Shown: positions 3,691 to 19,964, counted from the first letter of the stretch. The stretch: DNA of 64,000 nt from Bacteroidia bacterium (GCA_022180565.1 BQML01000008.1:62001-126000); one strand, 5' to 3'. The notes: generated from the sequence alone by a model not told the origin. Numbers and translations are program-made.

Positions 3691-4095
3691 ATGCGAAAAG
3701 TCATCATCGAAGGAAAGGTCTGTATCGGCCCTACGTTCTCAAAAGCCGAGTTTGCCCTCATCAAGCGAAACCTGGCCAAACAGAAAGGACTCGCAACGCT
3801 GGCCGACCTGCTCAACGTCGCCGGCAACATCCAACGACTCAGAATCATTTACCTGCTCCATGCCCATCGGGAAATGTGTGTCTGCGATCTGGCCGAAGTA
3901 CTCGGACTTACCGATTCTGCCGTCTCACAGCATCTGCGGAAACTGAAGGATAAAAACATTGTAAGAAGTCGGCGCCAAGGGCAAACCATTTTCTACTCCT
4001 TGGTGCAGAATATCTTTACGACGAACTTGCAAAACACGTTCGCACTCGATGAAACCAAAGAACCCCATGCTTTCATGCACAAGGAGATTGCGTGA
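3691..4095 (+). CDS. ArsR/SmtB-family metal-responsive repressor of the mer operon
   Basis: 134 residues with a winged helix-turn-helix; the recognition helix is around SAVSQHLRKL (76-85). The metal-sensing box of the family is present as EMCVCDL (Cys63, Cys65), with a further Cys11 near the N-terminus that could complete a three-thiol site. Canonical mer operons use MerR, but ArsR-type mercury regulators are known in several phyla. Here the location directly ahead of merTP and merA, behind a promoter and a palindrome, makes mercury the likely inducer (inference). The stop codon overlaps the merTP start region, so the genes are translationally coupled. Whether Hg(II), Cd(II) or As(III) is the true ligand cannot be read. 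Confidence 0.88.
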   Translation: MRKVIIEGKVCIGPTFSKAEFALIKRNLAKQKGLATLADLLNVAGNIQRLRIIYLLHAHREMCVCDLAEVLGLTDSAVSQHLRKLKDKNIVRSRRQGQTIFYSLVQNIFTTNLQNTFALDETKEPHAFMHKEIA

Positions 4096-4700
4096 TGGAA
4101 AAAGGAAAACTTACAACCACAGGCGCCGTCACGGCGGCGATCATCGCTTCGCTTTGCTGTATCGGACCCGTTGTCGTTGCGCTTATCGGCGTGGGAAGCA
4201 TCGGCGCATTCGCCGCGTTTGAGCCCCTCCGCCCGTACTTTATCGGACTCACCGTCGTACTGCTCGCTCTCGCCTTCTCTCTCACCTACCGCAAGCGTGA
4301 AGTGATCTGTGCCGACGGCACGTGCAAAATCGAAAGCGCAGGCACATGGAACAAGATCGCGGTCTGGTTTGCCACGCTCGTTGCTGCCATTGCCCTCGCA
4401 TTCCCATCGTTCGACTTCACCAACGCCGCTGCAGCACAATCGATGCTTGATCAAAACCGACAACAGCACCCGACCATGATCATAACCGTGCTTGACATCG
4501 AAGGGATGGATTGTAAAGGCTGTGCAAAAGGATTGGAAGCGACATTGGGTCGTGCTGCCGGGGTGAAAAAAGCAGCGGTGGAGTTTGAAAAGAGTCGTGC
4601 CGTCGTGGAGTACGATTCCAGCAAAACTACTCTCGAACAGCTCATCGCCGTGGTGGATGAGGCGGGATTCACGGCAACACCCAACAAAAAGCCGCAGTAA
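4095..4700 (+). CDS. merTP: MerT-MerP fusion, mercuric ion uptake protein
   Basis: 201 residues. The N-terminal half is MerT-like: the vicinal cysteine pair Cys21-Cys22 lies in the first membrane helix, two more helices follow, and a cytoplasmic-side loop holds Cys72 and Cys77 (CADGTC). The C-terminal part (about 127-195) is a MerP/heavy-metal-associated domain with GMDCKGC (Cys140, Cys143). In separate systems periplasmic MerP hands Hg(II) to MerT for import to reductase; the fusion keeps both steps on one chain. The ATG at 4095 is preceded by AAGGAG (4081-4086); a GTG one codon earlier is less likely. It overlaps the regulator's stop by one base. Confidence 0.92.
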   Translation: MEKGKLTTTGAVTAAIIASLCCIGPVVVALIGVGSIGAFAAFEPLRPYFIGLTVVLLALAFSLTYRKREVICADGTCKIESAGTWNKIAVWFATLVAAIALAFPSFDFTNAAAAQSMLDQNRQQHPTMIITVLDIEGMDCKGCAKGLEATLGRAAGVKKAAVEFEKSRAVVEYDSSKTTLEQLIAVVDEAGFTATPNKKPQ

Positions 4701-4717
4701 CCCACAAGGTTCCACAC

Positions 4718-6130
4718 ATGAACAACTACCCTCTCATCATCATCGGCGGCGGGGCGGCGGCATTTGCCGCGGCAACCAAAGCCAACGACCTCGGCGCTGA
4801 AGCGCTCATCGTCAACAGCGGACTTCCAATCGGCGGAACATGCGTGAACGTCGGATGCGTGCCGAGCAAGCATTTGCTCGAGGTCGGTGCACGCTACTAC
4901 TACGGGCAACGGCCGGGCTTCTCGGCCATTCAGACCAACGGACAGTTCCGGTTCGACTTCGCACAGGCGATCGCGTACAAGAATCAGCTCGTTGATGCGC
5001 TGCGCCAGAGCAATTACAGCGACGTCATCGCCAACTTCAAAACGGTGGAGTATCGAGAAGGGACTGCGCGATTTGTTTCACCACACGAGATCGAGATCGA
5101 AGGCCATCGTGTGCGCGGTGAAACGTTCATCATCGCGACCGGCTCGAAGGCGAAGATTCTTCCCTTCCCCGGCATCGAAAAGGTTCGCTATCTCACCAAC
5201 ATCGAAGCGTTAGAGTTGAACACGCTTCCGTCATCGATGATAGTTGTCGGCGGCGGGCCGCTGGGACTTGAATTCGCCCAGATGTACGCACACTTCGGCA
5301 CAAAAGTCACGGTGCTCGAAAAAATGAAGCGCATTCTGCCGCTGGAAGAGCCTGAAGTTTCCGATGAGCTGCAGACGGTTTTGGAAGAAGAAGGGGTGAC
5401 GATTCACACAGGCGTGGATATCCGACAGGTGCGAGAAGATGGTGGGAAGAAAATCGTGGTGGCGCTCGTGAAGAATACGGAAAAGGAATTCCGTGCCGAT
5501 CACTTGCTGCTGGCAACCGGTATCGAGCCGAACACGAACGGGTTGGCGTTGGAAAACGCCGGCGTGAACGTAGATCAGCGGGGCTTCGTTGTGGCCGATG
5601 AGACCCTCCAAACAACACAGCGGCACATCTGGGCTGCGGGCGATTGTGTGGGGAAGCTTGCGCTGGAGACTGTTGCCGCCAAAGAAGGTGCAATTGCCGC
5701 GGACAACGCACTGAACACCTCCGGTGCGCGTAAAAAAATCAACTACGACGAAATTCCCCATGCAGTGTTTACGATGCCGCAGGTGGCAAGTGTCGGCTTG
5801 ACCGAGCGAGAGTTGATGAAGCGCATCAACGTGTGTTCCTGTCGCACCGTGCCGCTGTCCGCGGTCCCCAAAGCGAAAGCAGTCGGCGAGACGCGCGGCG
5901 TCATCAAGCTGGTGGTTGACCCGCACACCGGTATTATCGTGGGTTGTCATATTGTAGCGCCCGCGGCGGCAGAGATGATTCACGAAGCCGTGCTGGCCGT
6001 GAAGTTCAAGCTGACGATTGATGATATCATTGATACCGTGCACACCTTCCCCACGTTCAGCGAGGGAATTAAATTTGCGGCACAGGCCTTCACACGCGAC
6101 ATCAGTGTGATGACGTGCTGCATAGGATAG
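4718..6130 (+). CDS. merA: Mercuric reductase MerA (no NmerA domain)
   Basis: 470-residue flavoprotein of the pyridine-nucleotide disulfide oxidoreductase family. It has the N-terminal FAD fold (IIIGGGAAAFAAA), the redox-active CVNVGC (Cys42, Cys47), a second Rossmann GGGPLGLEFAQ, the WAAGDC FAD motif and the C-terminal dimerisation domain ending in the vicinal pair Cys467-Cys468 that defines MerA among its relatives. It reduces Hg(II) to volatile Hg(0) with NADPH in the cytoplasm. The N-terminal heavy-metal domain found in many MerA proteins is absent, and such a domain is instead fused to MerT just upstream. It is 17 bases from merTP and 17 bases from the next gene. Confidence 0.95.
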   Translation: MNNYPLIIIGGGAAAFAAATKANDLGAEALIVNSGLPIGGTCVNVGCVPSKHLLEVGARYYYGQRPGFSAIQTNGQFRFDFAQAIAYKNQLVDALRQSNYSDVIANFKTVEYREGTARFVSPHEIEIEGHRVRGETFIIATGSKAKILPFPGIEKVRYLTNIEALELNTLPSSMIVVGGGPLGLEFAQMYAHFGTKVTVLEKMKRILPLEEPEVSDELQTVLEEEGVTIHTGVDIRQVREDGGKKIVVALVKNTEKEFRADHLLLATGIEPNTNGLALENAGVNVDQRGFVVADETLQTTQRHIWAAGDCVGKLALETVAAKEGAIAADNALNTSGARKKINYDEIPHAVFTMPQVASVGLTERELMKRINVCSCRTVPLSAVPKAKAVGETRGVIKLVVDPHTGIIVGCHIVAPAAAEMIHEAVLAVKFKLTIDDIIDTVHTFPTFSEGIKFAAQAFTRDISVMTCCIG

Positions 6131-10107: not shown

Positions 10108-11136
10108 TTATTCGCACGCCGACCACAGATCCGGACGGCTGGTTTGCATGACCACGGGGAGGTTGACCGAGATGGTGTCAACAACGTACCCTCCAAACAC
10201 CCCCAATCCCCCGGGGAGAGGAGAATAGTCGGGCTGATCGATGCGGATCGAAAACCGGTCCTGAAACGCTCTCGCGCTCGTAAAGTACTTGTACCACTCG
10301 TCATTAAACTGTACAACCGTAAACTTTGCGCGAAGGAATCGGTTGTTGTAGGACCGTTCATTGACAAGCTCGACGCACCGGCGATAGGAAAAATGAGGAT
10401 AGTCGTACCTTACGAGTTTCCCTGATGATCCTCCCGTTGAGGCTGCAGTCCGAAACTGAAAATCATACACTTCCTGGAAACAGCTCACGACAACCAGCCG
10501 GTCCGGGACTTCGATGCTTTTCTGGACGACACCCGACGGCGTCACGTCCTCATACTCGATCCGGAAGCGTACGAGAAAGGCCGATGCACCGGGGGAGATG
10601 ACAAACGAAACCACCGGATTCAAAATGCCCGTCCATGGATTGCGAATCACCACGTTCTGGGCGTAATCCGTGCTGAGGGTCGATTGTGGCGGAACCCGTG
10701 TTGTCGCCGTGAGGGTCCCTGCCGAAGGCGACGTCACCGTGAGCGTATACGAGGCGCCTGGAACGGGTTTGAAGCCCCGGGCAACGTACACAAATACGGA
10801 ATCACCAAATTCCGAAGGTCCCGGGCGGGGAAGGACCGTATCCGAAAACACGACGGTCTGCAAACCATCCGAGATCTCCACCACGGCATCCCTGACCGCA
10901 AGGTCTGCCTTCGAGGAATCGTCGGGAGATCGGTAGGACCGCACGACTCTCACATATTGCGTGTCGCTCTCGGCGCTCAGAATCGAATAGATCGCCATCC
11001 GCGGCACGAATTCTCCGAATGGATCCACAGAATCGTCGCACGAAAGGAGAAGGACCATCATCAAAGACAAGACGATCGCCTGGCTCAGACGGAAGATGAA
11101 CGAAGAAGGTGGGCCAAAAGGTCTTGGAATTCTCAC
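10108..11136 (-). CDS. DUF4249-family outer-membrane lipoprotein
   Basis: 342 residues with a lipobox at the end of the leader (VLLLSCDDS, Cys33), then a mostly beta chain typical of DUF4249. Such proteins are usually coded next to TonB-dependent receptors in Bacteroidota and are thought to sit at the cell surface. Its start overlaps the end of the receptor gene by four bases, so they are one operon. The substrate of the pair is unknown. Confidence 0.85.
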   Translation of the reverse strand: MRIPRPFGPPSSFIFRLSQAIVLSLMMVLLLSCDDSVDPFGEFVPRMAIYSILSAESDTQYVRVVRSYRSPDDSSKADLAVRDAVVEISDGLQTVVFSDTVLPRPGPSEFGDSVFVYVARGFKPVPGASYTLTVTSPSAGTLTATTRVPPQSTLSTDYAQNVVIRNPWTGILNPVVSFVISPGASAFLVRFRIEYEDVTPSGVVQKSIEVPDRLVVVSCFQEVYDFQFRTAASTGGSSGKLVRYDYPHFSYRRCVELVNERSYNNRFLRAKFTVVQFNDEWYKYFTSARAFQDRFSIRIDQPDYSPLPGGLGVFGGYVVDTISVNLPVVMQTSRPDLWSACE

Positions 11137-13361
11137 GGGCGGAACTCCAGAGAAAATGCCGCCGTCGGGAAGAATCTGAGCATGTTCGTTCTTCGACCCG
11201 TCGTCCTGTCGAAATAGAAAATGTTTTTTCGATCGTACACGTTCGTGACACCGGCCCCAACGGTGGCTTCCAACCCCGGCAATCGGATCAGCGTGTAATT
11301 GAAGTTCACATCCAGCCGATGGTATGTCGGCAAACGTGCTCCGTTCTTGAGACCGTAGATCGGAATCGCTTGACCCGTTTCATCGACGTACGAGTTCGGA
11401 TATCCTTCGCCGAGATTGAGCTTTTCATAGAACCCCACGAGGCGCGTAAACGGAAGGCCCGACCCGAATTCCCACCGCAGGGAAATATCGAGTCCCGTCA
11501 ACGGATGCAGAACCTGGAGAAGATTCACCGTGTGGCGTCTGTCGTACCGGGGCGGATACTCAAAACCGGGCTGTTTCAGAACTACTCTGGCCAGCGTGTA
11601 CGACGCAAAGAAATCCATGAGGGGAACCGAATACCGAAGCAAGATCTCGCCTCCGTACGAGGAGCCTTCGGCATTGATGTAGTCGGGCTCTTTGACCTCG
11701 ATTTTGTCCCGATTATAGGCGACGAGCGAGGGATATTGTTTATAGAATGTCTGGAGTGTTACGGAGAGCGAGGTTGTCACCGGCCCTTCCACTCCGAGCA
11801 CATAATGGTTTGAGGTCTGCGGCTTGAGGGACGTAGGGATCACGATCCACGGGGTGAAGATGGGCAGAACGTCATCCTCGTTGCTCACGGTGATGAGCCC
11901 CTGGCTGAAGCGTCCGTACGACGCCTTTGCCTTCCACTGTGCTGTGAGCGGAATGCTTACACTTGCCCGCGGCTCAAGGGCCGATTCAACGTCGCCCCAG
12001 CGGAAGAAGTTGCCGATCTCGGCCCGGAGTCCCAGGTCTGCATTCAAACCTTCCAGATTCATCTGGTAGCGCATCCACAGCGAAAACTGCAGAAGGGTCT
12101 CCGCCAGCCGCACCTGCGTTCCGAGTCTGTCGACGAACTGATACTCCGCTTTCGGGAAGTCAAGTTCGAATCCGAAAAAATAGATGTCCTTCGAATCGGT
12201 ATACGAGGTAATGTTCGCGCGCAGTCCGAATTCGCTGATCGTGCTTCGACCCGGCGGCGCGGAACTGAACTCCCGGACGATCCGCCGCGCTTCATAGTCG
12301 CTCAGCGACAGCGTGAGGTTCCAGAACAAACGGTCAGACATAAGGAAGTTCCCCTCCACTCCGACTGCCTTTGTCGACCAGGAGTACGCCGCATCGGAGC
12401 TTGATGAAGCGGACAATTGGTCGTCCGTCACCAAAGCCTGGATGCTGTACCGGTCCTGGGAAGAAGGATCCTTGATGGAGAGTTTTGCAAAGGCATCATA
12501 GAAGGAAAGCGGAACATCCTGTTTCAGATAGGTTTTAAAGGTACGGGAAAACAGGGACTTGCGGCCCGTGAAAATGGCCTGAACGGAATTTCCGACAGGG
12601 CCCTCAAGTTGGAGTTTAGAAGAAAGGAAATTAACGTTCAGAGTGGATGAAAACCGCGAGGCGTTTCCATCACGCGAGATCATATTGACCACGGCCGAAA
12701 GGCGCCCTCCGAAGTCCGCAGGAAACGCGCCGGTGTACACTTCCGTGGTACGCACAATGTCGGGATCGAAGGTGCTGAACAATCCGAAAGCATGAAACGG
12801 ATTGTAGATTCTCATTCCGTCCAGCAAGAACAGGTTCTGATCGCCTGCTCCCCCGCGAACGTAAAACTGCGCATTCACATCGCTTGTCGTCACAAACCCG
12901 GGAAGGATCTGAATGCTCTTGAGAATGTCGGCCTGGGGGCCGACCGGGACCTGTTTGAGCTCGGCTTTGTCGATCACGTGGACGCTGGTCTGCGTGCTCA
13001 GCAATTCGGGTTTCATGCTCTCCGTGACGACCACTTCGCTGAGGCGGACTGTCGAGGGCGGAAGGAGGAAGTTCACCGTAACGGTTTTGTCGTCCAGCAC
13101 GACGACGCGGACCGTACGTTTTTCAAAACCGACGGCAGAGGCCTGGATGTCGTATGCGCCGAGGGGAAGACTGGGGATGCGATAATAGCCGGCCGTGTTC
13201 GCGGCCGAACCCTTCGAGAGGCCGAGAATCATAATGTTGGCATACGGAATCCGTTCCCCCGTTGTGCTGTCGGAAACCGTGCCATGAATGTCTGCCTGCT
13301 GGGCAAGGGCGGTACAGAAGGCGCAGGCAAAGAAGAGGAGGAACAACAATACCCGGTTCAT
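11133..13361 (-). CDS. TonB-dependent outer-membrane receptor with CarboxypepD-like N-domain
   Basis: 742 residues: signal peptide (1-20), a carboxypeptidase-regulatory-like beta domain (about 21-100, VSDSTTGERIPYANIMI...), plug (about 115-225, with RGGAGDQNLFLLDGMRIYNPFH), then a 22-strand type barrel ending in aromatic LEFRP. It imports a ligand across the outer membrane using TonB-ExbBD energy, none of which is in the window. Compared with SusC proteins it is short, and the partner is DUF4249 instead of SusD, which fits small-ligand or siderophore-like uptake better than polysaccharide (inference). Confidence 0.92.
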   Translation of the reverse strand: MNRVLLFLLFFACAFCTALAQQADIHGTVSDSTTGERIPYANIMILGLSKGSAANTAGYYRIPSLPLGAYDIQASAVGFEKRTVRVVVLDDKTVTVNFLLPPSTVRLSEVVVTESMKPELLSTQTSVHVIDKAELKQVPVGPQADILKSIQILPGFVTTSDVNAQFYVRGGAGDQNLFLLDGMRIYNPFHAFGLFSTFDPDIVRTTEVYTGAFPADFGGRLSAVVNMISRDGNASRFSSTLNVNFLSSKLQLEGPVGNSVQAIFTGRKSLFSRTFKTYLKQDVPLSFYDAFAKLSIKDPSSQDRYSIQALVTDDQLSASSSSDAAYSWSTKAVGVEGNFLMSDRLFWNLTLSLSDYEARRIVREFSSAPPGRSTISEFGLRANITSYTDSKDIYFFGFELDFPKAEYQFVDRLGTQVRLAETLLQFSLWMRYQMNLEGLNADLGLRAEIGNFFRWGDVESALEPRASVSIPLTAQWKAKASYGRFSQGLITVSNEDDVLPIFTPWIVIPTSLKPQTSNHYVLGVEGPVTTSLSVTLQTFYKQYPSLVAYNRDKIEVKEPDYINAEGSSYGGEILLRYSVPLMDFFASYTLARVVLKQPGFEYPPRYDRRHTVNLLQVLHPLTGLDISLRWEFGSGLPFTRLVGFYEKLNLGEGYPNSYVDETGQAIPIYGLKNGARLPTYHRLDVNFNYTLIRLPGLEATVGAGVTNVYDRKNIFYFDRTTGRRTNMLRFFPTAAFSLEFRP

Positions 13362-13464: not shown

Positions 13465-14406
13465 CTAATCCGTAACGCGCTCCAACTTTGTTATCCTCCC
13501 CCCTACAATCCATTCCACGACATACAGATTGCCTTCGCCATCGGCGGCAATGGAGTGAGGGCTATTGAACTTTCCGTCGGCCAGCAGGCGCGGCGGATGA
13601 TTCGGCCATCCCGGAATGGAACAGGTCGCCTCGTTCCCACCGAGATAGCACACAACCCGGTTATTCCGATCAAGGACGGTCACCCTGGCCTGGAGTTCGG
13701 GAACGATGAGCTCCGAGCCGACGATGATCGCCATGCAGGGGGAAGAAAGCCCGTGCCGGAAACTTCCGCGGAAGACCCCGCTCCCGTCATACACTTGAAA
13801 CTGTTTGTTTCCCCGATCCGCGATCGTCAGCTCCGGTTTTCCCCTTCGATAATCAAACATGATCCCGTGCGGACAATTGAATGCTCCTGCTGTCCCCTCT
13901 TCCCCGCTCAGACTCACCTTGTACTCTCCCCTCTTGTCATAACAATGGACCAGGTTCATCCCATATCCGTCCGCCACCCACACGTCCCCATTTCCTCCGA
14001 ACCGCTCCTCATTGACGGCCACCCATGTGGGAGAGTATCTCCCCCCCTTGTATGCCCGGTGATTCGGCGGATCCAGCTTAAGCACCGTCGTTCCGTCAAG
14101 TGTCGTTTTGACGACCTCTGCGGTATCCTGGTCTGTGAGCCAGAGGTACTCCACATCGTTCTCGCGGACGAGCGTCATTCCATGCGCTCCCGGAAAGCGT
14201 TCACCCCACGCATCCAGGATCGCACCATGGGAATCGAACACAAGCACGGCGGGGCTTGCCTGATGGAACACCAGCACATTCCCCGAGGCCGCCACGACAA
14301 CACCGTGGGTTCGCCCGTTTTGTTGAGAACTCGGGGTGTCCGGAATGACGGCCCATCGGTTGATCCAGCGGTAGCGGTGACGGCCTTCTCCAATGATCAC
14401 ACTCAT
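13465..14406 (-). CDS. NHL-repeat beta-propeller protein
   Basis: 313 residues with repeated NHL-like blades: RTHGVVVAASGNVLVFH, GAHGMTLVRENDVEYLWLTD, SPTWVAVNEERFGGNGDVWVADG, CPHGIMFDYRRGKPELTIAD and NSPHSIAADGEGNLYVVEW, enough for about six blades. No signal peptide, so cytoplasmic. The start overlaps the cupin gene's stop by four bases, making it the last gene of the methyltransferase operon. NHL propellers serve as scaffolds or as lactonase-like or lyase enzymes; no catalytic set could be assigned. It might act on the same sugar-like substrate as its neighbours. Confidence 0.82.
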   Translation of the reverse strand: MSVIIGEGRHRYRWINRWAVIPDTPSSQQNGRTHGVVVAASGNVLVFHQASPAVLVFDSHGAILDAWGERFPGAHGMTLVRENDVEYLWLTDQDTAEVVKTTLDGTTVLKLDPPNHRAYKGGRYSPTWVAVNEERFGGNGDVWVADGYGMNLVHCYDKRGEYKVSLSGEEGTAGAFNCPHGIMFDYRRGKPELTIADRGNKQFQVYDGSGVFRGSFRHGLSSPCMAIIVGSELIVPELQARVTVLDRNNRVVCYLGGNEATCSIPGWPNHPPRLLADGKFNSPHSIAADGEGNLYVVEWIVGGRITKLERVTD

Positions 14407-15614
14407 ACAACTCTCCCGTAAGGTTTCAGCATCGGGACGTCGGGACAGACATCCGGCCCGAAGAATTTCAGAATCACCAGATCCTCGTTGCCGGTGTTCC
14501 TCACCGTAAGCTCCTCGACGGCCTTCGCGTGCGACACCAGAAGCTCGTCCTTTCCCGCCTCGCCGGCTTGCACTTCATGTCCGTCAAACGATCCGCGTCC
14601 GCGCCACACGAACAGGCTGTACACTCCGGGATCACGGGTGGTCATGGTCTTTCCCGGTTTCACTACAAGTCGTTTACCGCTGAACTTCGTCGTGTTATAG
14701 AAAATCCACTCTTCTTCTCCGTCTGACGAACGCCGGATAGTGACCGGCGGCGTATGGTGGTTCTCATAGAAGTAGGGGTCGCCGTTTGCCTCCCAGTCGA
14801 TCATCTCCAGAAGTGCGCGTTCACCGAGCCGTGCACGGTCTTCGGGGCGAACATCTTTGAAGAGCAATTCCTTGTCGAGGATCCTTCCCGCCACGCGTGC
14901 CTGAAACATTGCAAAGACGTCCGAATCCTCCTGCAGTTCCACCGTGAGCGCCGAACCGGGTGCGTGCAGTATTCCGGCCGGAACGTGCCAGCCGTCCCCG
15001 GGGACGAGTCTGTATGCCCTCGATTCCCGCAGAATGAGATCGCTGTTCCAATCCTGAAGGTACGAAAGAAGCACGTCATATCGTCTCTGCTCGACGATCG
15101 ATGGATGCAGGCCGAAGTAGGTTTCCGGCTCATGACCCAGTGAAACACCTTCGGGAAAGTAGTAAGCTTCCTCTTTCGGATTTCGCCCCACCAGGTCCGC
15201 GTGCTTCTTCATTTGGTGCAGATGGTATGGGATTCTGAATTCATAGTCAAACAGTTTGGCAAGACGGTCCAGTCCCCGCGGATGCGTTGCCGCATAACGG
15301 CTTCCCATCACAAGGTCCGGCGCCGCGGCCACGGCATCCTTGAGCGTCAGGCGCGTGTCCCCCGCCAGGGCGATGAAGCTCAGCCCCTCGCCGGGAACCT
15401 TGATCCGGTTGTCGGCTTCTGTCGTAGACGCAAGCCAGCGTTCCCCAATCCCTCCCCGGCTTCCGAGATCGTAGAGCTCCTCCGGACAACCAAGCCGTCT
15501 CCCCGGTGGGAGGAAATCCCGCGCCACCCATGCCGGCTCAAGGGGCAGAATGCCGTTGTGATCCGCGAGAATCTTGTCGACAAACGCTTTCAGGTCTTTC
15601 GTTTCAGACGTCAT
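14403..15614 (-). CDS. ManA-like cupin (mannose-6-phosphate isomerase homologue)
   Basis: About 403 residues. The central part reads like a type I phosphomannose isomerase cupin: HLHQMKKHADLVGRNPKEEAYYF, HEPETYFGLHP, and GDGWHVPAGILHAPGSALTVELQE, where the metal-binding His and Glu set would be expected; a second cupin half follows (YSLFVWRGRGSFDGHEV). It could isomerise an aldose/ketose or bind a sugar-like ligand. I prefer the ATG giving MTSETKDLK, 21 bases inside the longest frame; it overlaps the MtaB-like stop by 11 bases. Coupling to methyltransferases is unusual for this family. Confidence 0.78.
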   Translation of the reverse strand: MTSETKDLKAFVDKILADHNGILPLEPAWVARDFLPPGRRLGCPEELYDLGSRGGIGERWLASTTEADNRIKVPGEGLSFIALAGDTRLTLKDAVAAAPDLVMGSRYAATHPRGLDRLAKLFDYEFRIPYHLHQMKKHADLVGRNPKEEAYYFPEGVSLGHEPETYFGLHPSIVEQRRYDVLLSYLQDWNSDLILRESRAYRLVPGDGWHVPAGILHAPGSALTVELQEDSDVFAMFQARVAGRILDKELLFKDVRPEDRARLGERALLEMIDWEANGDPYFYENHHTPPVTIRRSSDGEEEWIFYNTTKFSGKRLVVKPGKTMTTRDPGVYSLFVWRGRGSFDGHEVQAGEAGKDELLVSHAKAVEELTVRNTGNEDLVILKFFGPDVCPDVPMLKPYGRVV

Positions 15615-16983
15615 CCGGAATGCCGTATTCCCCATAGTTCACATGGTCCTTCCATTTTGGTCTTTCTTCGGCAATGAAACCCATCGAATCCGAGGGAAGT
15701 TCAGAGACGGTGTGTTCGATCCTCGTGAGCCATTCTTGCTCGCGTTCGCTGAGAAGCAGATGTTGTTTCGACAAGCCTTCCCGCAGGAGATCAACGGCCT
15801 TGACGGCGACGGCAACCCCCCGCCGGTAATCGTCCTGCTCCGAAACGATGGCCCGGGCCAGCGCCTCGACCGCCCTCGGAGATAAAATAAAGGCTTGCGG
15901 ATCAAGACCGGCGTCGGATTCCGAAAACCAATCGCGGAGTCTGCGGCCCTCTCCCCTGCCCGCCGCCACGTTCATCAGTCTGCAATCATACACAAGTTGT
16001 TCCATGGAAACAACAGGCGCCATGCCGGCCAGCAGCTTGATGTTCTGCACGGATTCATTGCTCCAGAGGTCCGCGTAGCAACCGGCGATATTGCCTACAG
16101 GGCTCAGATGCGCGCAGGCGGCGGATTTGCCTTCCATGGACATGGGAAGCCCGGTGATCGCCTTGAGAATAGCGTTCTCATATCCGCAATCCTTGCCCGG
16201 TCCGGCGGCACCGACCTCGTAGGCAACCAGGGAGCGGACTGCCGTAACGGCGCGGACAACGGCGGCAAACACCCGCGGAATATATCCCTGGTCTGCCAGT
16301 ACCATAGCCGTATTGCCGATGCCGCATGCCGTGTCCCCCGCAGGCACGGTACCGGTTTCCCTGGCAACGCGAACGATCTTTTCCCAGAGAAATTCCATGT
16401 CCGCACAGCCCAGGACGACTGTGCCGAAGAGGATTCCCCTCACATCTGCCGCCATGATTGCCTGATCCGTGACTTCCTTGCCGCCGGTGGATTCAATGGA
16501 CAGAAGATCGGCACCCGCCCGTGCACACCGGCGAAAGCTCTCCAGAAGCAATTCCGTTTCACGCCCGCGCCTTCTCTGGGGAGGTTTGTTCTGCTCCCGA
16601 ATATCGACGGGCGTGATCCTCAGCAGGGACTGCAGACCATGCGATGTCCTGAATTCTGCCAGGATCCCCGCAATCAGTGAGGTGATCGACTCACCCATGG
16701 GCGGATCGACGGTCATGGGCGGCAGGAGCTCAAATTCGACGACAACGGATTGCTGGCCGAGATGGACAGCCCGTTCGCACACGGCTGTGACGATTTCGCG
16801 ATACATCGCCTCGATTTCCATGGCAGGCGTGTCCTCGATGCTCATGGGCGGAAGCGTGAACTTGATCTCCGGAAGCACCTTTCCACCGCCGATCAACACG
16901 CCGTTTCGTCTCAGGGGAGTTCCTGCGACACCAAAGAGGAGAGCATCGGCTCCCAGGGTAAGGCTGTTGAATCGCTTTCTCAT
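15604..16983 (-). CDS. MtaB-like corrinoid-dependent methyltransferase (methanol type)
   Basis: 459 residues, the usual MtaB length. In methanogens MtaB breaks the C-O bond of methanol at zinc and passes methyl to the Co(I) corrinoid of MtaC. The zinc ligands known for Methanosarcina MtaB (Glu164, Cys220, Cys269) have counterparts here at Glu164 (LLSIESTGGKE), Cys220 (DTACGIGNTAMVLADQ) and Cys266 (GAAGPGKDCGYENAILKAITG). An active enzyme is thus likely, but the substrate may be methanol or another methoxy compound. It overlaps the corrinoid gene by four bases. No methyl-CoM chemistry is expected in this bacterium, so tetrahydrofolate is the plausible final acceptor (inference). Confidence 0.88.
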   Translation of the reverse strand: MRKRFNSLTLGADALLFGVAGTPLRRNGVLIGGGKVLPEIKFTLPPMSIEDTPAMEIEAMYREIVTAVCERAVHLGQQSVVVEFELLPPMTVDPPMGESITSLIAGILAEFRTSHGLQSLLRITPVDIREQNKPPQRRRGRETELLLESFRRCARAGADLLSIESTGGKEVTDQAIMAADVRGILFGTVVLGCADMEFLWEKIVRVARETGTVPAGDTACGIGNTAMVLADQGYIPRVFAAVVRAVTAVRSLVAYEVGAAGPGKDCGYENAILKAITGLPMSMEGKSAACAHLSPVGNIAGCYADLWSNESVQNIKLLAGMAPVVSMEQLVYDCRLMNVAAGRGEGRRLRDWFSESDAGLDPQAFILSPRAVEALARAIVSEQDDYRRGVAVAVKAVDLLREGLSKQHLLLSEREQEWLTRIEHTVSELPSDSMGFIAEERPKWKDHVNYGEYGIPDDV

Positions 16984-17618
16984 CGGCTGTTCAGCAATTC
17001 TTTGACGACATCCACCGCCGTTGCGGCATCGCGCGCATAGCCGTCGGCGCCGATCTCGCTTGCGAAGTTTTTGGAGATCGGCGCGCCTCCGACGATCACC
17101 TTGACGTGCGCCCGCAGATCGCGCTGTTTCAATGCCTCAATCACCGTTTTCATATGCACCATGGTTGTCGTGAGGAGCGCCGACATGCCGACCACATCCG
17201 GATGTTCCCGCTCGATCGCATCGATGAACTTCTCCACCCGCACATCCGTCCCGAGATCCACCACGTCGAATCCCGCCCCCTGGAGCATGATGGCAACGAG
17301 GTTCTTGCCGATGTCGTGCATATCGCCGCGCACCGTGCCCAGGACCACCTTGCCAAGCGGCTCGTGTCTCGCGGCGACGAGCAGCGGCTTCACAAGTTCC
17401 ATGCCCGCTTTCATGGCGCCGGCAACGGCCAGCACTTCCGGAAGGAACATTTGTCCCGACTTGAACTTTGCCGCAACCACTTCCATCCCCGCAATCAATC
17501 CTTCCTTCAACACCCTCTCGGCAGGGCATCCTTCCGCAAGCGCCGCCTCCACGGCCTTGCGCGCCCGTTCCGAGTATCCGTTTTGAACATGCTGAGCTAT
17601 TTCCGCATATCTATCCAT
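16980..17618 (-). CDS. Corrinoid-binding protein (MtaC/MttC type)
   Basis: 212 residues: a helical cap (about 1-85, B12-binding-2) and a Rossmann corrinoid domain with the base-off/His-on signature GDMHDIGKNLV (Asp99, His101, Gly104), then SALLTTTM and VGGAPIS loops that hold the nucleotide tail. It shuttles a methyl group between the MtaB-like and UroD-like partners. The ATG at 17618 is chosen because GGGAG lies six bases upstream and the longer frame would run back into the preceding gene. It sits 10 bases after the UroD-like stop. Confidence 0.92.
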   Translation of the reverse strand: MDRYAEIAQHVQNGYSERARKAVEAALAEGCPAERVLKEGLIAGMEVVAAKFKSGQMFLPEVLAVAGAMKAGMELVKPLLVAARHEPLGKVVLGTVRGDMHDIGKNLVAIMLQGAGFDVVDLGTDVRVEKFIDAIEREHPDVVGMSALLTTTMVHMKTVIEALKQRDLRAHVKVIVGGAPISKNFASEIGADGYARDAATAVDVVKELLNSR

Positions 17619-17628
17619 TGATTGCTCC

Positions 17629-18777
17629 CTAATATCGTCCATAGGTTTCCGCGACCTCCACCATCGCAAAGATGTTCTCATGCGGGGTATCGCGTCCGCA
17701 CTGATCGCCCGTCGAAAGCACAAAACCGCCGTCGGCCGCCGCTGCATCAATCAACCGGCGGCACTTTTCCTTCACTTGTTCCGGCGAGGCGTTCAGCATG
17801 AAGTCGAACGTGTTGATGTTTCCTTTGATACACAGCTTGTCCCCGACCCTGCGCTTCGCCTCAGCAATATCGACATTGCCGCCGGGCGGCTCTTCCATCG
17901 GCTCCATCACATCGATGTCCGTCTCTTCAGCCACGATCTGCACCAGTTCCCAGGATCGCCCGCAGACATGGAGATGCGCCAAAACACCCTCCTCATGGCA
18001 GACCTTCGCCGCTTGCTGAAGGAGCGGAAGTTCGTACGTTCGAAACAACGCCGGCGAGCTGATGCTGAGGCTTGCCGAGGAACCCCCGAACATCACTTCG
18101 TCTGGATGCGCTTGTGCAAGCGCCCTGACGTACGCAAGCGCCCAATCCAGGTACAGCTCATGGACTTCCTGCATGAATTTTTCCTCCTCATGAAAGTCCA
18201 TGAAACATCGCTCGAATCCGCCATGACGCAGATTGAACCACCAATCCTGAAACACCGGAACAACTGGCGAGTAGACCCCAAGGTCCCCGATACGATCCCT
18301 GTCTCTGAAGTCGGCCTCATACTTCCACGGGCCTGTCCCCATCCACAACTTCAATTTCTTGAAGTCTTCTTTCAAATCCTTCACCGGTTTCGTCTCCTTC
18401 CAGGGCGGTTCATCGTGGAAGAACATTTCTTCTTCCGTGAGATCGCCCAGCGGGGTATGACAAACTCGCTTCACCAGCTTTCCGTCCTGAACAGGCTCAA
18501 TCGTTTCGACAAATTCGGGCGCGTCCGGAGGACGAATCTCCTTTAATCCTCCATAAACGTACCATCCGTCTATGCCAAAATATTTGACCGTATCGACATA
18601 GACGTGTGTGTAAGTCTCGGATGTCCATCCCGTATGATCGCTTCCATCAAGAAACAATTCATGGAACGGCCTTCCTGTGCGTTTCGCAGGCACCATCACC
18701 GAGATGTCGGGGCATACGGGCACACGGTCTGCCTTCTTCCTGCGAAACGCCATTCTTAACCTCTCTTTTGATGTCAT
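17629..18777 (-). CDS. UroD-fold methyltransferase, MtaA/MtbA-like
   Basis: 382 residues of the uroporphyrinogen decarboxylase superfamily. Methylcobamide:CoM-type enzymes carry a zinc motif His-x-Cys...Cys, present here as His270-x-Cys272 (HLHVCGRS) and Cys360 (STGDQCGRDTP), whereas true HemE lacks it. It would move methyl from the corrinoid to a thiol or to tetrahydrofolate, or act as a second substrate-specific demethylase. Gene order beside a corrinoid protein supports the methyltransferase reading over haem synthesis. It overlaps the isomerase gene by four bases. Confidence 0.87.
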   Translation of the reverse strand: MTSKERLRMAFRRKKADRVPVCPDISVMVPAKRTGRPFHELFLDGSDHTGWTSETYTHVYVDTVKYFGIDGWYVYGGLKEIRPPDAPEFVETIEPVQDGKLVKRVCHTPLGDLTEEEMFFHDEPPWKETKPVKDLKEDFKKLKLWMGTGPWKYEADFRDRDRIGDLGVYSPVVPVFQDWWFNLRHGGFERCFMDFHEEEKFMQEVHELYLDWALAYVRALAQAHPDEVMFGGSSASLSISSPALFRTYELPLLQQAAKVCHEEGVLAHLHVCGRSWELVQIVAEETDIDVMEPMEEPPGGNVDIAEAKRRVGDKLCIKGNINTFDFMLNASPEQVKEKCRRLIDAAAADGGFVLSTGDQCGRDTPHENIFAMVEVAETYGRY

Positions 18778-19736
18778 GGTATGGATGCCTTGGTCGAGTT
18801 TTGGTCACGGGGCGGCCAAAAACGGGAGAGAAAATTCGCCCCTCTGAGAAGAGCGTCTTTGATCGCCTCTTCCGAATCCTCCCACTCCGGATCCTCCAAT
18901 TCAATAGAGAGCGTTCCCTCGAACCCCGCCTCGTGAAGCGCCCCTGTAAACCTTGCCCAGTCGATGCTTCCCTTGCCCGGCAGACGGTACCGCCACCACC
19001 CCGGATCGCGGGGCTCCGAGGTCAACTGCGGCCCATAGATACCGTATCGATACAAACCCTCAGGCAGAAGCTCACAGTCCTTTGCGTGAACATGGAAGAT
19101 CTTTTCTCGGAAATCTCTCACCGCTTTCTCGTAATCGATGGCGAGCCAAAAGAGGTGAGACGGATCAAAGTTCAATCCGAAATTCTCGAACGGCAGTTCG
19201 TGAAAAAGAGCGCTCCACAGTTCAGGAGAATATGCCAGGCTCCCCGGCGCGTTGAACTTCTGCCATCCTGTCATAGGACAGTTTTCAATCATGACTCTTA
19301 CTCCCCTGTCTTTCGCAAAACTGAGAATTTTTCTCAGCTCTTTTACAATCTCCCGGAAAGATTCGGAGGGGGTCAGATTTGGGTGAGCGCCGACGAACGT
19401 GCCGACGAGGTTCACGTTCAAGGCCGCCGCGGCGTCGATCACCTTCCGCAAGTGACTTCGCACATGATCTCTGACGGCGGCATCCGGGTCCAGAAGATTA
19501 TCGTAATAGGCGAGCGCAGAAATCGTTTTTCCCTTTTCAGCAAGGAGATCTTTGAAGCGGTCGGCGGAAGCGTTGAGAGAGTCAACATCGATATGACTGC
19601 CCTTGAACTTACGCTTGGAACCAGACGGCCACGCCGCCACTTCAAGGGCATCAAATTTCGTGCCCTGGGTCCATCGAATCAGGTTCTCAAGTGAAGTCTC
19701 GAGGAGGCAGGAAGTAAGAAATCCGATTCTCTTCAT
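18774..19736 (-). CDS. Sugar-phosphate isomerase/epimerase-type TIM barrel
   Basis: 320 residues of the xylose-isomerase-like/AP-endonuclease-2 fold. Metal-site landmarks appear in order: MIENCPMTGW (Glu), FGLNFDPSHLFW (Asp and His), KIFHVHAKDCE (His and Asp), and LSIELEDPEW (Glu). Members include inosose dehydratase, hydroxypyruvate isomerase and tagatose/psicose epimerases. It is first in the six-gene operon and starts 62 bases after the -10 box at 19798-19803. There is no Shine-Dalgarno on this strand; GGAAGGAGG occurs on the opposite strand. It is the best pointer to a polyhydroxylated substrate for the operon. Confidence 0.85.
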   Translation of the reverse strand: MKRIGFLTSCLLETSLENLIRWTQGTKFDALEVAAWPSGSKRKFKGSHIDVDSLNASADRFKDLLAEKGKTISALAYYDNLLDPDAAVRDHVRSHLRKVIDAAAALNVNLVGTFVGAHPNLTPSESFREIVKELRKILSFAKDRGVRVMIENCPMTGWQKFNAPGSLAYSPELWSALFHELPFENFGLNFDPSHLFWLAIDYEKAVRDFREKIFHVHAKDCELLPEGLYRYGIYGPQLTSEPRDPGWWRYRLPGKGSIDWARFTGALHEAGFEGTLSIELEDPEWEDSEEAIKDALLRGANFLSRFWPPRDQNSTKASIP

Positions 19737-19797: not shown

Positions 19798-19826
19798 AAT
19801 ATATCTGTTTGAGAAAGGTGAATCAA
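19798..19826 (-). promoter_or_regulatory. Sigma70-like promoter of the corrinoid methyltransferase operon
   Basis: On the minus strand TTGATT (19826-19821) and TATATT (19803-19798) are 17 bases apart and point at the isomerase start at 19736. It is back to back with the promoter of the respiratory operon; the two -35 boxes are 33 bases apart. Confidence 0.7.
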
Positions 19827-19939: not shown

Positions 19940-19964
19940 GCCGCGGTCCTTCCGCGGCTTTTTT
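19940..19964 (+). terminator. Leader terminator or attenuator ahead of actA
   Basis: GCCGCGG (19940-19946) pairs with CCGCGGC (19952-19958) around TCCTT and is followed at once by six T residues (19959-19964). It has the full shape of an intrinsic terminator on the plus strand. It lies about 45 bases after the predicted start of the respiratory operon transcript and 52 bases before actA, with no plus-strand gene upstream that it could serve. It is therefore either an attenuator or the end of a short leader RNA. Confidence 0.75.

Follow-up and report, generated by a model that had tools for sequence, protein, structure and literature searches.

Organization and integrity of the operon

Six tightly packed open reading frames, TIM, UroD, MtaC, MtaB, CUP and NHL in order of transcription, occupy positions 19736-13465 on the minus strand of the window, the 64,000-nucleotide stretch of a Bacteroidia bacterium genome (GCA_022180565.1, BQML01000008.1:62001-126000) that was analysed as a whole (Table 1). 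A first-pass annotation of this DNA had described a six-gene operon with overlaps of 4-11 bases and one 10-base gap behind one promoter, and all open reading frames were found in the order and at the coordinates that it gave. Neighbouring genes overlap by 4 bases at the TIM/UroD, MtaC/MtaB and CUP/NHL junctions and by 11 bases at the MtaB/CUP junction, and the 10-base gap from UroD to MtaC is the sole gap among the operon junctions. The 11-base value applies to a CUP start at ATG 15614, which agrees better with the homologues than the upstream ATG 15635, from which the overlap would be 32 bases. The single promoter did not rise above chance: the -35/-10-like match upstream of TIM is weak, and four such sites were found in the region against 2.6 ± 1.8 expected. 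The interval that separates the operon from the divergent respiratory complex genes contains a strong GC stem of 7 pairs and a T run (GCCGCGGTCCTTCCGCGGC TTTTTT).

Table 1. Positions of the operon genes and of other features in the window
Feature	Position	Strand	Description
TIM	18774..19736	-	First gene, 320 aa, xylose-isomerase-like TIM barrel (AP_endonuc_2)
UroD	17629..18777	-	UroD/MtaA-like methyltransferase, 382 aa; candidate metal residues H268/H270, C272, C360
MtaC	16980..17618	-	Methyl-carrying corrinoid protein, 212 aa; DxHxxG motif at residue 99
MtaB	15604..16983	-	Homologue of zinc methanol:corrinoid methyltransferase, 459 aa
CUP	14403..15614	-	ManA-like (type I phosphomannose isomerase-like) cupin, 403 aa
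NHL	13465..14406	-	Last gene, beta-propeller, 313 aa
Promoter-like match	19798..19826	-	TTGATT-17-TATATT, upstream of TIM; chance-level
GC stem and T run	19940-19958		Between operon and divergent genes
TonB-dependent receptor and DUF4249 pair	10108-13361	-	Directly downstream of NHL, 103-base gap
Regulator-like ORF, membrane protein, oxidoreductase	3691-6130	+	Row of three

The differences between the six frames and those of relatives amount to 0.53-0.63 at codon position 3 and only 0.03-0.26 at position 2, with dN of 0.06-0.39 and dS of about 2.4 or saturated. Since these differences concentrate at position 3, the frames are real genes, and all six are under strong purifying selection. Elsewhere in the window, three genes in a row look like a mercury-resistance set, with a small regulator-like ORF as the regulator, a membrane protein as the MerT-like member and a pyridine nucleotide-disulphide oxidoreductase as the MerA-like one.

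Characteristics of the encoded proteins

The protein families named in the first-pass annotation were recovered, with matches to PF01261 for TIM (139 bits), PF01208 for UroD (95 bits), PF02310 and PF02607 for MtaC, PF12176 for MtaB (518 bits, cut-off 25) and an NHL repeat for the last protein. CUP matched no Pfam or NCBIfam family, and its AlphaFold model was unusable (pLDDT 34.8), so that it was placed by profile search instead, with a match to the ManA-type structure 1qwr (E 1.4e-10).

MtaC carries the B12-binding and B12-binding_2 domains together with the DxHxxG motif expected of a corrinoid protein, and its best solved relative is the Moorella corrinoid protein 1y80 (E 3.9e-62). MtaB matched the Methanosarcina barkeri structure 2i2x_A (E 3.5e-87), and its residues E164, C220 and C266, invariant in 104 sequences, align with E164, C220 and C269 of 2i2x, which we take to be the zinc ligands. 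Its score against the NCBIfam equivalog for methanogen MtaB was 416 bits of the 720 required; MtaB would thus be a homologue of the methanol enzyme and not a proven isofunctional protein.

UroD scored 75-80 bits against the MtaA/CmuA subfamily models (cut-offs 235-244), 69 bits against the MtaA equivalog (cut-off 400) and 24 bits against HemE, and by sequence it is a distant relative of MtaA and CmuA. A weak AlphaFold model (pLDDT 60.7), which served for a fold-level check only, gave MtaA of M. mazei (4ay7) as the best match, followed by UroD and MetE. Residues H268, C272 and C360 are invariant among the sugar-linked homologues, and H270 is lost in one compared homologue and kept in the rest. 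H270-V-C272 aligns with the HxC motif of MtaA and C360 lies two positions off the MtaA cysteine; given this offset, the zinc site of UroD is regarded as a candidate. A plasmid search with UroD as the query returned no relevant match.

TIM is weakly related to IolO, IolE and the 2-hydroxy-3-keto-glucal hydratase 8ro4, and shows weak similarity to sugar epimerases. In CUP, H131, H133, K147, E149 and H217 are invariant in 16 homologues. The ManA-type HxH/E/H metal site (H131, H133, E149 and H217) is intact and its region aligns with 1qwr; isomerase activity is predicted. The cytochrome oxidase subunit COX1 was matched in the host with 508 bits, in line with the aerobic chain that had been ascribed to it.

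Distribution among relatives

Genome searches found MtaB in 26 of 100 relatives, and the UroD-MtaC-MtaB trio of the window type only in the host (G000) and in G001, G012, G017 and G019. The trio MtaBs form a supported clade in a tree from which the fragmentary G019 MtaB was excluded, apart from the MtaBs of the other relatives and also from a large Verrucomicrobiota-Planctomycetota group. The sister genome G001 keeps the operon order, including the upstream divergent respiratory complex genes, as far as its contigs extend. Its assembly is interrupted within UroD, so that one contig holds TIM-UroD and another UroD-MtaC-MtaB-CUP, the latter ending in CUP. Its TIM homologue (70% identity) is directly upstream of UroD. 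The NHL homologue of G012 (72%) adjoins CUP, and TIM homologues with 51-55% identity adjoin Gfo/Idh and GH42 genes in G012, G088, G596 and G642.

A class-wide search detected UroD with at least 63% identity in eight genomes of three families, and in all eight UroD lies beside TIM, CUP or the GH10 gene of a glycoside cluster. MtaC and MtaB accompany it only in the family of the host, and MtaC alone does so in two other genomes. G088, of another family, has UroD between GH10 and GH13 with neither MtaC nor MtaB locally; in G596 and G642, of a third family, UroD is also between GH10 and GH13, and MtaC follows CUP without MtaB. The neighbourhood of the six families, on which the first-pass annotation had rested its check, is therefore conserved in part: the exact set occurs only in the host and its sister, as far as the contigs of the latter reach, and TIM, UroD, CUP or their cluster partners are kept together across three families. 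More distantly related UroD proteins (42-46%) make up a second group, whose members likewise occur in sugar-type clusters, together with Gfo/Idh and a GH-like protein.

Several other arrangements were observed. The host has a second sugar-type cluster with another UroD (G000:C13:4892-14229, locus L143), which also encodes a heparinase-like protein of 775 aa, a DeoC/LacD aldolase, PfkB, an SSS-type transporter and an 816 aa protein without a Pfam match; the equivalents of this cluster in G003 and G009 carry MtaC-MtaB, and the host copy is without them. A family of about 770-815 aa, 56-58% identical between families and without a Pfam match in the tested member, lies beside UroD in this second cluster type (L143:10023-12473, L125:11739-14072 and L226:12975-15293). 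Islands with MtaB in Verrucomicrobiota, Planctomycetota and Armatimonadota (L066, L068, L074, L033, L055, L092 and others) hold MtaC, several UroD proteins, RACo and homocysteine S-methyltransferase. Among 49 long MtaB loci, MtaC was present in 36, UroD in 22, RACo in 20 and homocysteine S-methyltransferase in 11. In L034, L035, L052, L056, L060, L062, L064, L097 and L100, MtaB has no recognisable MtaC, UroD or activase nearby, and these lone genes retain intact zinc ligands.

Linkage to a glycoside cluster

Polysaccharides of plants, algae and microbes commonly carry methyl ethers. TIM, UroD and CUP of the operon are three genes of a conserved glycoside cluster of about 20 genes, which comprises GH42, GH10-like, GH13, GH2, epimerase, Gfo/Idh and kinase genes and transporter parts, including a solute-binding protein and a MalK-type ATPase. 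The trio of G012 is inside a large catabolic cluster, directly behind the last of three GH10-like genes, together with GH42-type proteins, DUF6259, Gfo/Idh, the TIM homologue (55%), a second TIM barrel, an epimerase, CUP, NHL, PhyH, an FGGY kinase, an aldo-keto reductase and a solute-binding protein. A GH10-like gene directly precedes UroD in G017 and G019 also. Neither the host nor its sister has the GH10-like protein, and no glycoside hydrolase adjoins the host operon.

A CUP-marked cluster without UroD, MtaC and MtaB occurs in other families of the class, in the order GH10, GH10, GH13, epimerase, GH2, CUP, a small conserved protein, AKR, flavodoxin, ABC ATPase, PhyH, a nucleoside hydrolase-like protein and SBP. 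Because GH10 is directly followed by GH13 in five such UroD-free clusters, UroD is an optional insert in a sugar pathway that is similar in other respects, which fits a gene for the handling of methylated variants. A substrate-defining role of MtaB gained no support; linkage favours UroD as the pathway-linked methyltransferase and MtaB as a lineage-specific partner, since the sugar clusters of three relatives hold UroD without a local MtaB, one of them also without MtaC.

Two candidates were considered in these clusters and rejected. The PhyH dioxygenase as an oxidative substitute for UroD was set aside, as clusters that have UroD and clusters that lack it both contain PhyH, and so was methanol derived from pectin, as there are no pectin enzymes among the annotated cluster genes. 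A protein of about 208 aa without a Pfam family (L163:10399-11025 and homologues) is kept right after CUP in the sugar cluster. The TonB-dependent receptor and DUF4249 pair downstream of NHL could import a substrate; the pair was not recognised in the sugar clusters of relatives.

Activase and methyl acceptor

Family searches, on which the host absences rest, detected no RACo/RamA activase (PF14574, PF17651) in the host genome, which is 100% complete, nor in G001, G012, G017 and G019 (completeness of 72, 94, 69 and 88%). PF14574 is present in 19 of the 20 other genomes with substantial MtaB (Fisher p about 1e-4 for the difference, with shared ancestry ignored). RACo also occurs without MtaB, in several relatives it sits in a separate cluster of UroD, MtaC and homocysteine methyltransferase, and in G088, a genome that also has pieces of MtaB, it occurs together with a window-type UroD. 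The absence of an activase points to a new activation route and is suggestive, short of proof, because RACo lies in separate clusters and occurs without MtaB. To our knowledge, an oxidised corrinoid has no way back without RACo or RamA, and the missing activase raises the question of how the corrinoid is kept reduced.

The first-pass annotation had drawn a parallel with acetogens, in which relatives of the system feed tetrahydrofolate. This transfer was rejected for the host because no folate-type MTII was found there: among the host proteins, Pterin_bind is confined to FolP and MetH. MTII was not found in G001, G012 and G017 either, and was found in G003, G009 and G021.

Proposed function and alternatives

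The tie between a corrinoid methyl-transfer module and sugar conversion, already proposed in the first pass, gained support from the gene content and the linkage to glycoside clusters. Because relatives of the operon sit inside large sugar-degradation clusters, we favour its reading as a corrinoid-dependent O-demethylation module of sugar (glycoside) catabolism, to which we give an even chance of being correct. The intact zinc ligands of MtaB, carrier motif of MtaC and metal site of CUP, together with the purifying selection, also speak for this reading. Against it stand the lack of a glycoside hydrolase beside the host operon, the lack of RACo/RamA and of a methyl acceptor enzyme in the searches, and the offset C360 of UroD. 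Methanol and an O-methylated sugar or polyol had both been named as the substrate; the gene context favours a methylated glycoside, and free methanol is less favoured.

We infer a flow of methyl from sugar to cobalt, and with it the removing enzyme, the destination of the methyl and the substrate. As the pathway-specific enzyme, UroD would transfer the methyl between the cobalt of MtaC and a methylated compound derived from the sugar; zinc-MtaB, a second methyltransferase on MtaC, would serve the side of methanol or an equivalent small molecule. The demethylated sugar may then be isomerised or epimerised by TIM and the ManA-like CUP, and NHL would be an accessory, possibly a lactonase-like propeller. 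The methyl could leave as methanol through a reversed MtaB, or on a thiol through UroD. One specific form of the scheme, in which UroD demethylates the sugar onto Co(I)-MtaC and reversed zinc-MtaB releases the methyl to water as methanol, is offered as a rather improbable conjecture. If true, the net reaction of the two enzymes would be a folate-free hydrolysis of sugar methyl ethers that needs no ATP-dependent activase and runs in bacteria encoding oxygen respiration.

The operon might instead work in the classical direction, with MtaB demethylating methanol or an O-methyl sugar onto MtaC, UroD methylating a thiol such as homocysteine, and the sugar enzymes merely processing the other product. 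This alternative is a tentative one that we consider somewhat unlikely. MtaB retains all methanogen zinc ligands, UroD scores best against the MtaA/CmuA models and has MtaA as its best fold match, and only one of the compared homologues has lost the HxC. Relatives also pair corrinoid systems with a stand-alone homocysteine methyltransferase, an enzyme absent from G000, G001, G012 and G017, where UroD could therefore replace it. However, it is UroD and not MtaB that is conserved with the sugar cluster, which lacks MtaB in G088, G596 and G642, and the third cysteine of UroD is offset from that of MtaA.

Corrinoid methyl-transfer chemistry is near-reversible and MtaB is a methanol enzyme by homology, so UroD might also place a methanol-derived methyl on a sugar or metabolite as a modification; we hold this to be very unlikely, as glycoside hydrolases, a kinase, a solute-binding protein and a MalK-type ATPase mark the gene context as catabolic and no glycosyltransferase is among the annotated cluster genes. 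Equally improbable is a decaying or repurposed remnant whose corrinoid genes no longer exchange methyl, which would suit the lack of RACo and folate MTII in the host but runs against the intact catalytic and cobalt-binding motifs, the strong purifying selection and the order kept in the sister genome.

Comparison with known systems

No described pathway with this gene set, and no description of corrinoid demethylation of sugars, was found in the open-licence literature, in agreement with the first-pass annotation. The operon shares with the methanogen MtaABC system a zinc-MtaB with the same ligands, the MtaC carrier and a UroD-fold, MtaA-like partner. It differs in that the host UroD falls well short of the scores required of MtaA (69-80 bits against 235-400) and has an offset C360, in that the operon carries sugar enzymes, and in that the host is without RamA. 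Complete activase-bearing corrinoid systems differ likewise, as both RACo and RamA are absent from the host. MtaB and MtaC are also shared with the acetogen methanol systems of Moorella, Acetobacterium and Eubacterium, and the host MtaC is closest to Moorella 1y80. In acetogens, MtaA is a methyltransferase of about 30 kDa with tetrahydrofolate as the methyl acceptor (PMC13391211). The corresponding E. aggregans gene lies behind mtaC, and the host has no such gene.

Type 1 mlp gene clusters resemble the operon in combining bacterial MtaA-like (UroD) proteins with a corrinoid protein, and some of their hosts are also without a folate methylase (Kountz and Balskus, PMC10418091). These clusters carry multiple Mlps and a Ram/RACE activase, occur in obligate anaerobes and have been proposed for methyl-sulfur or methyl-selenium compounds (PMC10418091). 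Membership requires at least two Mlps plus Ram/RACE, whereas the host operon has one UroD and no activase, and has in addition MtaB and sugar genes in a genome with cytochrome oxidase. UroD-fold O-demethylases and CdmB are similar in that a UroD-fold methyltransferase I acts on a corrinoid protein; these systems end in a folate MTII, have an activating enzyme and use aromatic ethers or chloromethane, with no sugars among the substrates (PMC13222342).

The route found in the literature for the removal of sugar methyl ethers is an oxidative one, namely the P450 O-demethylation of 6-O-methyl-galactose by porphyran users, which shares with the proposed pathway the catabolic demethylation of a methoxy sugar, yields formaldehyde and proceeds without a corrinoid (PMC10033563). 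With a corrinoid route, glycans would join methanol, amines and aromatics in the range of B12 methyl chemistry, and methylated glycans could be used with little or no oxygen.
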